From: Microbacterium testaceum | GTDB taxonomy: Bacteria > Actinomycetota > Actinomycetes > Actinomycetales > Microbacteriaceae | Direction: 5' to 3' | Length of the DNA stretch: 64,000 bases | Assembly (NCBI RefSeq): GCF_020781835.1 | Contig: NZ_JAJGNJ010000009.1 | Span: 1-64,000, forward strand | Shown here: positions 44,254 through 45,665 of the stretch, piece after piece | How positions within the stretch are numbered: the first letter of the stretch is position 1 | Layout: every line of letters starts with the position of its first letter | Translations under genes and position numbers: made by a program | Notes under the pieces: generated by a model | Seen by the model: the letters and a program-made list of their open reading frames with translations, nothing else | What the model was told of the DNA's origin: nothing | Database searches by the model: none

Positions 44254-44301
44254 GCGCCCGCGCCCGCGCCCGCGCCCGCGCCTGCGCCCGCGACCGCGCC
44301 C
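44254..44301. repeat. GCGCCC hexamer tandem tract
   Basis: Eight consecutive 6-bp units, six exact GCGCCC and two with one change, lie between the start of the L10 transcription unit and the first element-1 inverted repeat. Confidence 0.85.
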
Positions 44302-44314
44302 GCGCTTGGCGAAA

Positions 44315-44401
44315 GCACACGTTCGGGCCGAACGCACATGTTCTGGCCGACCCGAACGTGTGCGCTCGGCCGGATCGTGTGCGCTCGGCCGGAACGTGTG
44401 C
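44315..44401. repeat. Inverted decamer element, family 1, left copy
   Basis: Two 29-bp arms (44315-44343 and 44354-44382; 25 of 29 positions complementary) around a 10-nt loop, plus one additional unit. The words are GCACACGTTC, GCACATGTTC, then inverted GAACGTGTGC, GATCGTGTGC and GAACGTGTGC at 44315, 44334, 44354, 44373 and 44392. It begins 18 bp after the stop of the AbiEi-like gene and may terminate it. The partner copy is at 45512. Confidence 0.88.
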
Positions 44402-44418
44402 GCTCGCGACCGGCACGC

Positions 44419-45402
44419 TCACGACGGCGGGGTCACGCCGAAGGCAGCCAGGCGGGCGGCCAGCGTCTCGGGGCTCGTGATGTCGCGGAACCCGCCGCGA
44501 CACAGCCGCCACTGCGTCGTGCCGCGGATCCAATCCTCGCGACGCTTCTCGGCGAGCAGGACCTCCTCGAGGGTCGCGTCGGCGCGCAGCGCGGGGTCAC
44601 GATACTTCGCCTCTCCGTCGAACTCCCAGAACGTGCGACGGTCTCGCAGCGCGATGTCGACGAAGTAGTCGCGGCCGGTCGGCCCCGCGATCGGCACCTG
44701 CAGGTCCATGTCACGGAATCCGAGACGGAACAGCTGCAGCCGGCTCACGCTCTCGCCGGGCAGTTCCGCCCGCCCGTCGGCGAATTCGATCACCCATCGT
44801 GCTCCCGTCACGCCGCGGCGGCCCGCGGCTCGGGCCGCACGCTCCCGCATCCGCTCGCGCCAGGCGTCCTGGGCTGCGGGGTCGACCCCATGCCCGCGCC
44901 CCGCTTCGCGCCGCAGGGCGGCATCGGCGCACGCGACGGCGACCTCCGCACCGCAGGTCCGGGCGACGTCGAAGACGGTGCGCTCCAGGGAGGTGCAGCG
45001 GATGCCCTCGACCTCGACGACGTCCGTCGCATCCAGCTCGTCCTGGTGACGACGAACGCGACCTCGACTCGGCGCCCGGGACCCCGCAGGCACGGTGAGT
45101 TCCACGGGCGTGCGACCGAACCGGTATTGCGGGAGGCCGTGGACGACCGCGGCGGACAGATGGGAGAGCACGGCAGCCCCGCCCCTCATCCGGGCGACGA
45201 CCGCGAGGGCTTCGAGCCGGTGGAGGGAGGCCGGGCGGAGGTCATCCACCGCGTCCCGCGTCACGTACATGCCGCGGTGCAGCCGCGTCCACTCTCCCCC
45301 ACCGTCCCGTCGGAGCCGCCGCGGCCGGACGTCGCGATCGAGAAGCTCACCGCGGGAATGCAACAGGTCCCGCGCTTGACAGAGGGTGATGTCGCGTGCC
45401 AT
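44419..45402 (-). CDS. AbiEi-like winged helix fused to DUF559/Vsr-like nuclease domain (element 1)
   Basis: 327 residues. Residues 1-110 resemble the N-terminal winged-helix domain of AbiEi-family antitoxins (ITLCQARDLLHSRG, WTRLHRGMYV, AVLSHLSAAVVHGLP). Residues about 215-315 resemble DUF559/Vsr-type PD-(D/E)XK nucleases: Asp249 (YFVDIAL), Glu260, Asp262 and Lys266 in FWEFDGEAKY, then LLAEKRREDWIR. No AbiEii toxin gene is adjacent. The gene stands alone between two family-1 inverted elements, next to the L10 promoter. The nuclease residues look intact, but activity is unproven. It shares its layout with the gene at 55986. Confidence 0.8.
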   Translation of the reverse strand: MARDITLCQARDLLHSRGELLDRDVRPRRLRRDGGGEWTRLHRGMYVTRDAVDDLRPASLHRLEALAVVARMRGGAAVLSHLSAAVVHGLPQYRFGRTPVELTVPAGSRAPSRGRVRRHQDELDATDVVEVEGIRCTSLERTVFDVARTCGAEVAVACADAALRREAGRGHGVDPAAQDAWRERMRERAARAAGRRGVTGARWVIEFADGRAELPGESVSRLQLFRLGFRDMDLQVPIAGPTGRDYFVDIALRDRRTFWEFDGEAKYRDPALRADATLEEVLLAEKRREDWIRGTTQWRLCRGGFRDITSPETLAARLAAFGVTPPS

Positions 45403-45511
45403 CCGGTCAGCGTGCCTCGACGGGCGCGTCCCGCGCCCGCGTCACCCCCGCCCCTGTGCATCCCCGCCGCATCATGCCCCCTGTGCAGCACCCGCGACCC
45501 CGGCGCCCAAA

Positions 45512-45579
45512 GCACACGATCCGCCCGAACGCACACGTTCCGGTCGACCCGAACGTGTGCGTTCGGGCGGATCGTGTGC
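45512..45579. repeat. Inverted decamer element, family 1, right copy
   Basis: A perfect inverted repeat: 29-bp arms (45512-45540, 45551-45579) with no mismatch and a 10-nt loop holding GGTCGACC, itself a palindrome. Words: GCACACGATC (45512), GCACACGTTC (45531), inverted GAACGTGTGC (45551), GATCGTGTGC (45570). It lies 109 bp upstream of the AbiEi-like gene's start. The 45403-45511 stretch around it has no other recognisable feature. Confidence 0.92.
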
Positions 45580-45592
45580 ACTCGGGCGACGA

Positions 45593-45665
45593 CAGCGGCG
45601 ACGGCGACCGCGCGGGCGACGGCGGGCGCGCGGGCGGGCGCGGGCGGGCGCGTGGCCGGCGCGCG
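45593..45665. repeat. GC-only degenerate tandem tract
   Basis: An imperfect repetition of GCGGGC-like units beside the right element-1 repeat, nearly free of A and T. Together with the hexamer tract at 44254 it encloses the element. The remaining bases up to 45741 show no gene. Confidence 0.6.

Follow-up and report, generated by a model that had tools for sequence, protein, structure and literature searches.

An AbiEi/Vsr-like gene between palindromic elements in Microbacterium testaceum: a candidate cognate protein-repeat pair

Among the systems closest to the locus described here are the repetitive extragenic palindromes (REPs) with their REP-associated tyrosine transposases (RAYTs). Their hallmarks, in the accessible parts of PMC2817692 and PMC3116915, are flanking inverted REPs, co-evolution of repeat and protein, a single-copy gene and a repeat abundance tied to that gene. 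We examined a stretch of 64,000 nucleotides (nt) from Microbacterium testaceum (contig NZ_JAJGNJ010000009.1, positions 1 to 64,000), referred to here as the window, at which a gene for an AbiEi-like protein with a Vsr-like domain lies between two palindromic repeats; gene and repeats together are denoted element 1. We read it as a cognate protein-repeat pair, in which one chromosomal "mother" gene lies between two palindromic elements and solo copies are dispersed in intergenic regions, similar to REP-RAYT and with an unrelated enzyme, and we give this reading a probability of about 55%.

As in the REP-RAYT systems, so far as the same two sources describe them, the gene is placed between two inverted copies of a palindrome, each paralogue has a separate gene and repeat, the repeat co-evolves with the protein, repeat abundance correlates with the gene and solo copies are extragenic. 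On the other hand, RAYTs are tyrosine transposases related to IS200/IS605, whereas the protein found here combines an AbiEi-like fold with a Vsr-like domain; no Y1 tyrosine (IS200/IS605-like) transposase feature was found in the element 1 protein, at which the fold matches cover the model and no Pfam model matches. The four boxes at a period of 19 nt and the phylum also differ. Moreover, in the Stenotrophomonas REPs a change in one arm of the palindrome is matched by a complementary one in the other (accessible part of PMC2817692), unlike the 20 elements of the repeat family 2 described below, in which no co-variation of the arms was seen.

In the AbiE type IV toxin-antitoxin system, AbiEi represses its own promoter, where it binds two inverted repeats of 23 bp, and Rv2827c binds four, according to the accessible text of PMC7319586. 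The N-terminal two-thirds of our protein has a predicted AbiEi-like fold, and the promoter-side multi-repeat site resembles that of Rv2827c. Unlike AbiE, the locus has no adjacent AbiEii (DUF1814) nucleotidyltransferase toxin, and it has an extra nuclease-like domain, dispersed solo sites and another element on the 3′ side of the gene. The predicted fold of the C-terminal domain is like those of Vsr and I-Bth0305I; unlike homing endonucleases, the gene is a stand-alone chromosomal gene with many private sites, and no intron or intein context was seen. The ends of Tn7 carry protein-binding boxes. The nuclease domain shows a distant fold match to TnsA-type transposon nucleases and boxes are present near both ends here too, but no TnsB/C-like gene was detected among the scanned neighbours and there was no sign of an element-sized insertion.

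We set element 1 apart from these nearest systems because the defining enzyme of REP-RAYT was tested for and is absent, and likewise the toxin partner of AbiE. Its way of life is nevertheless REP-like, and if the class were defined by way of life, element 1 would count as a REP-RAYT variant. In the titles and abstract beginnings listed by searches of the open-access literature, no description was found of an AbiEi/Vsr-like protein paired with private dispersed repeats. The word Actinobacteria is absent from the accessible text of two REP papers, and Microbacterium, Collinsella and Bifidobacterium are absent as well from that of PMC3733652. A Vsr-like DUF559 protein of Caulobacter is described in PMC12907096, whose accessible part contains no word beginning with "palindrom".

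Element 1 and its protein

The gene of element 1 (44419..45402, minus strand) encodes a protein of 327 amino acids with no internal stops. An AbiEi-like fold is predicted for residues ~11-209 and, for residues ~213-325, a domain like Vsr and the EDxHD homing endonucleases. At the promoter side lies a family-1 element (45512..45579) with four boxes of the GCACACGWTC type, while the distal element (44309..44407) has one extra box. Outside the distal element there is a GC-rich 6-nt tandem tract (44252..44305), and another GC-rich tandem tract is found outside the promoter-side element (45585..45684). The initial annotation had proposed that the gene is enclosed by inverted repeats of one family with GC-rich tandem tracts beyond both; this was borne out, the promoter-side palindrome being near-perfect (33/34 arm positions paired) and the distal one imperfect (37/49). 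The two sides of the gene form an inverted pair over 80 nt with an 83% match, and the DNA folding energies of the element-bearing stretches were as low as -44.7 kcal/mol (z -13.1) and -32.1 kcal/mol (z -6.5) in comparison with 200 dinucleotide-shuffled sequences.

The AlphaFold2 model of the protein had a predicted local distance difference test score of 94.6 and a predicted template modelling score of 0.91. In fold comparison, residues 11-209 resembled AbiEi (6y8q; Z 8.3, root-mean-square deviation 7.1 over 171 residues) and residues 12-228 resembled Rv2827c (1zel; Z 7.0). Residues 213-325 matched the homing endonuclease I-Bth0305I (3r3p; Z 10.0, 94 residues, 3.0 Å) and Vsr (1cw0; Z 9.3), with a more distant match of the nuclease domain to the TnsA-type nuclease (1t0f; Z 6.4). 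The AbiEi-like and Vsr-like matches together span the whole model. Such middling Z values may by themselves reflect merely a common arrangement; the AbiEi identity is independently supported because PADLOC assigned the N-terminal part to AbiEi (E 1.5e-14). No Pfam model matched the element 1 protein: AbiEi_4, found in 22 of 70 aligned homologues, was absent from it, and DUF559 matched none of the 70. Thus, of the earlier assignment to an AbiEi winged helix plus a DUF559/Vsr-like nuclease, the AbiEi part and the Vsr-like fold stood and the DUF559 label did not, the Vsr-like nature of the C-terminal domain being a matter of predicted fold. A distant fourth homologue is alone in the genome in passing the Pfam cut-off for DUF559 (REase_MTES_1575 was below its cut-off) and, judged by this match, ties the protein family to the large DUF559 set. 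Searches against solved structures (by sequence), NCBIfam and PHROGs gave no useful matches.

Residues E217, D249, E260, D262, G263, R288 and R302 were invariant in both alignments, and K266 was invariant in one of them and almost invariant in the second; hence the D-E-D-K set noticed in the initial annotation (D249, E260, D262 and K266) is intact. Comparison of the element 1 gene with its orthologue in the relative G053 gave a nonsynonymous divergence (dN) of 0.088 and a synonymous divergence (dS) of 0.51, and dN/dS was ~0.17 for each of the two homologue genes in the window, indicating purifying selection.

Box geometry, co-variation and solo copies

We searched 149 genomes of the genus, including the genome under study (G000) and with one genome per species; other G numbers denote relatives or genomes of the phylum sample, C contigs and L the loci read. 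A homologue of the element 1 protein was detected in 122 of the 149 (E ≤ 1e-10), with 1-7 per genome. Ninety-two loci were read among the best-scoring genus homologues, and 86 remained after leaving out 6 with a short flank. Left and right flanks matched with a score of at least 40 in 72/86 loci, compared to 30/512 cross-locus flank pairs and 6/886 shifted windows, and 79/86 showed either a flank match or a strong palindrome. The box sequences varied widely between loci, the constant feature being the geometry, with two direct boxes per arm and the arms inverted. Of the 210 strong-palindrome arms tested, 156 bear a repeat, and 146 of these have their boxes precisely 19 nt apart; shuffled arms gave none at 19.

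In the phylum sample (396 genomes, 236 genera), homologues were present in 122 genomes and 87 genera. Matching flanks were identified in 22 of 28 loci examined, and in 21 of 26 outside the genus, with shuffled sequences as the sole controls; of the 22, L318, L319 and L338 were marginal and L328, L330, L331, L341 and L343 matched far better as direct repeats. Element 1 belongs to a phylum-wide pattern. Tandem repeats (period of at least 5) covered 8% (5′) and 19% (3′) of bases within 250 nt of the genes of L039-L098, where the background beyond 600 nt was ~1% or less. These near-gene repeats are partly the 19-nt boxes themselves, and are perhaps a trace of breakage and repair.

Over the 86 loci, element similarity grew with protein identity (correlation 0.28, reached by 0/999 Mantel permutations). 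The share of locus pairs with an element score of at least 50 was 0 below 35% identity, 0.07 at 40-45%, 0.35 at 50-55%, 0.77 at 60-70% and 0.88 at 70-90%. The N-terminal part of the protein followed the element more closely (partial correlation 0.25) than did the C-terminal part (0.09). A per-residue search for specificity positions gave weak partial correlations of at most 0.21, which we did not use.

Solo copies of family 1 were searched for with a two-box pattern allowing up to two mismatches. Counts for family 1, for family 2 (the repeat of a second homologue in the window, element 2) and for the elements of G397 and G509 are pattern matches, often two per element; the reversed-pattern control gave zero for families 1 and 2 and the G509 element, and one match (in G326) for the G397 element. 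The family-1 pattern matched 22 times in this genome and 21 times in G053. Overall 24/149 genomes were matched, 15 of them with one or two matches, all at two mismatches except for G072. Of the nine genomes with at least three matches, seven are among the 14 whose protein is at least 55% identical (p 4e-7). One of the nine, G097, is accounted for by its own similar element. In G084, which has three family-1 matches, the top match to the family-1 protein reaches 44% identity; the three may be orphans left after gene loss, or reflect an assembly gap.

The family-2 pattern was found in 12/149 genomes, with up to 51 matches, and all 12 lie within the 17 that carry a full-length protein at least 55% identical (p 3.9e-14). 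G044, which has two part-matches (56 and 60%) on contig pieces and no family-2 match, changes this to p 1.2e-13 if counted as an 18th genome. The remaining five of the 17 had diverged boxes in the flanks. In two more distant members of the phylum, the flank element of G397 matched 44 times in its own genome and not at all in 14 others, and that of G509 15 times in its own and once across 12 others. The initial annotation had asked whether the repeats occur only where the gene occurs, and this held for family 2 (12/12) and for seven of the nine family-1 genomes with at least three matches, and failed in G084. Apart from that genome, repeats spread widely without the gene, which it had named as contrary evidence, were not seen.

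All 29 solo elements examined in this genome were intergenic, within stretches that are 76-95% coding according to the gene models of a codon-usage gene finder, which were also used for the gap types. The gaps holding solo sites were 15 tandem, 6 convergent and 3 divergent, against a background of 24, 7 and 14 in five stretches, two of them from relatives. The mix was not clearly different from background; divergent gaps tended to be fewer, a difference that is not significant (Fisher p 0.14). Of the solo sites in tandem gaps, 9 were closer to a 3′ end and 6 closer to a 5′ end. An array of three elements was found within one gap (L180, 8779-9119).

Alignment across species showed how individual solo sites differ. 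At site A the element was present in seven of eight aligned genomes (G000, G027, G104, G072, G024, G084 and G009), where its boxes were retained and its spacers had changed. In G053 it was down to one box, and G007 was too long for this alignment. At site B it was aligned in G000 and G072 and absent or a trace in G053, G009, G024 and G104, and it is also spanned by the matching sequences from G007 and from the end of a G027 contig. Site C retained only the outer boxes in G027 and none in G053, site D was common to G000 and G027 with the others not aligned, and site E was found in G000 only, out of three aligned. Four family-1 solo sites were common to G000 and G053 with boxes kept. In L228 (G027:C2), the orthologue of G000 C67:67320-67388, a family-1 solo element retains only its outer two boxes, which looks like a deletion of the palindrome's interior.

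The spacers between boxes were more alike within genomes (0.75) than between them (0.60), a difference reached by 0/2000 label shuffles over the 144 listed matches, out of 182, in eight genomes (G007, G016, G020 and G070 were left out), and in the 20 family-2 elements the outer CATAAAC-type boxes were nearly invariant; as pattern searches favour the named boxes, box invariance and spacer likeness arise partly by selection.

Further homologues and neighbouring genes

The second gene in the window, that of element 2 (55986..56945, plus strand; 319 amino acids), encodes a distant homologue with 31% identity. Its layout is that of element 1, but the repeat differs: family-2 elements with CATAAACGC boxes lie on its promoter side (55852..55920; 24/34 paired) and its 3′ side (56950..57014; 25/32 paired), with a GC-rich tandem tract outside the former (55713..55840) and a tandem tract outside the latter (57018..57164). 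The two genes are 10.6 kb apart. Element 2 is neighboured by the open reading frames 55116-55547 and 57251-58411, which from their translations are presumably rplK and nusG.

Two further homologues were identified (C33:21123-22049 and C67:149798-150364), with private repeats on both sides of each; thus 4/4 homologues found in the genome are bracketed by repeats, each pair of a different sequence. At the C33 homologue, the left and right flanks form a matching inverted pair, yet each is only a weak palindrome (scores 13 and 11). On its 3′ side (L008, 2438-2806) there is a duplicated 114-nt unit (94% identical) together with more partial element copies. The four homologue genes sit on contigs C67 and C33, and AbiEii (PF08843) was detected in the genome only on C64 and C8, in agreement with the earlier remark that an AbiEii partner is missing. 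The AbiEii-type toxin genes there (C64:48509-49192 and C8:21472-22065) perhaps belong to ordinary AbiE systems.

The gene of element 1 sits between the genes for ribosomal proteins L7/L12 and L10 (by Pfam) and a YqaJ-like gene. A profile scan of five neighbours identified L7/L12, L10, a transporter, a dehydrogenase and a secreted nuclease-nucleotidase, in addition to the YqaJ gene. The latter (45742-46416, plus strand) is a stand-alone YqaJ-like recombinase/exonuclease gene (PF09588) that adjoins element 1 and is also its neighbour in G053 (93% identical). The secreted protein (38205-42821, minus strand; 1538 amino acids) has lamin-tail, Exo_endo_phos nuclease, metallophosphatase and 5′-nucleotidase C-terminal domains, and resembles an ExeM/NucH-type nuclease fused to a nucleotidase.

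Alternative explanations and meaning

The hallmarks of REP-RAYT are found here with an unrelated enzyme in another phylum, from which we infer binding, nicking or cutting, and copying during repair. Most likely the AbiEi-like N-terminal part would read double-stranded boxes spaced 19 bp apart, the promoter-side element also serving as the protein's own operator, and the Vsr/homing-endonuclease-like domain would nick or cut at or near element sites. Repair could then copy element sequence between sites, which would account for dispersal and for likeness within species. The promoter-side element fits the precedent of AbiEi; the distal element, the dispersed private copies, the three-copy array and the presence of a nuclease-like domain rather than a toxin partner do not.

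Several observations weigh against a cognate, dispersing pair. Seven of the 86 loci (L015, L019, L051, L061, L081, L083 and L087) showed no repeat by the flank-match or palindrome test, and orthologues lacking a flanking repeat, the other kind of contrary evidence named in the initial annotation, are limited to at most these seven. Solo sites are common to several species, as expected of regulatory sites, and a clean insertion site with target duplication was not found at sites A-E or the four sites shared with G053 in the cross-species alignments. The initial annotation had also suggested looking for empty sites; absences and partial remnants were found at solo sites, none of which proves insertion, as absences can be losses. 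In several target genomes the flank was not located or the stretch was too long to be aligned. Elements at site A match the gene flanks of their own genome (10/9999 permutations), but this is confounded by phylogeny, which the tracking follows. Co-occurrence and species-specific versions are likewise partly due to shared descent. Within the 20 family-2 elements, 497 of 500 shuffles paired the arms equally well or better, and this argues against selection for a hairpin and fits binding sites on double-stranded DNA; a RAYT-like hairpin-processing chemistry was lowered accordingly among the candidates. Of the 13 relatives whose family-1 protein reaches 55% identity or more, 9 keep both genes on one contig, 10.4-13.0 kb apart, and the remaining four have them on separate contigs of draft assemblies. 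Genomes with several homologues carry them on different contigs, and no insertion of a gene-plus-ends unit was seen, though no systematic search for it was made. The element 1 protein had no match in plasmid and phage collections, and the nuclease function of its C-terminal domain is predicted from the model.

Some of these points favour the main rival, a regulator with a regulon or with a role in chromosome architecture, which would bind the dispersed four-box sites and control nearby genes or DNA topology, with the nuclease-like domain serving that role and nothing moving. Box and protein would co-vary as for any transcription factor and its sites, the missing arm co-variation is usual for protein-binding sites, solo sites are retained at orthologous places, the window genes keep their positions, and the promoter repeats of AbiEi and Rv2827c, in the accessible text of PMC7319586, are a precedent. 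Against it, the solo sites show no promoter bias in gap type or in distance to gene ends and differ among relatives, a second element 3′ of the gene and the array of three would be odd for operators, and the nuclease domain has invariant acidic residues; we hold this explanation to be unlikely, yet deserving serious weight. The AbiEi operator precedent in the same source would also serve a narrower account, in which an autoregulated AbiEi-type nuclease has its operator in the promoter-side repeat, the remaining repeats being ordinary hairpins between genes (terminators, for instance) that resemble it by chance. The elements are indeed intergenic, and folding is strong for those beside the two genes in the window, but the distal and solo elements share the private box sequence and geometry, and the repeats, unlike generic terminators, go with particular genomes and genes; we regard this account as highly improbable.

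The initial annotation had left room for a nuclease-based defence or competition device, which would be a restriction-like nuclease cutting foreign DNA that has the boxes or lacks a protective context. AbiEi is a family of the defence library and the C-terminal fold is Vsr/homing-like; there is, however, no toxin partner, the neighbours listed above do not point to defence (no genome-wide methyltransferase search was made), tens of sites lie in the host chromosome and the phage and plasmid collections searched do not carry the protein. This suggestion found no support and is the least probable of the four explanations. Its companion, a self-contained protein/DNA element that is perhaps a domesticated selfish element, fared better and could be extended by the flanks, the co-variation and the solo copies mostly limited to gene-bearing genomes.

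Going further, the REP-RAYT way of life may have been invented a second time, independently, in the form of this cognate protein-repeat pair spread across Actinomycetota, a tentative proposal to which we give somewhat less than even chances. The private four-box sites of an antitoxin-like, sequence-specific nuclease would here replicate and homogenise in the host chromosome as double-stranded DNA is cut and repaired, and the joint divergence of protein and box would have produced many pairs foreign to one another. If true, many dispersed bacterial repeat families would be explained by one gene each, outside the RAYT world, and many naturally matched protein-site pairs would become available for learning AbiEi specificity. 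It would also provide a testable role for a widespread uncharacterised protein, present in 122 of the 396 genomes of the phylum sample, and the maintenance of dispersed repeats by vertically inherited genes would become a directly testable question.
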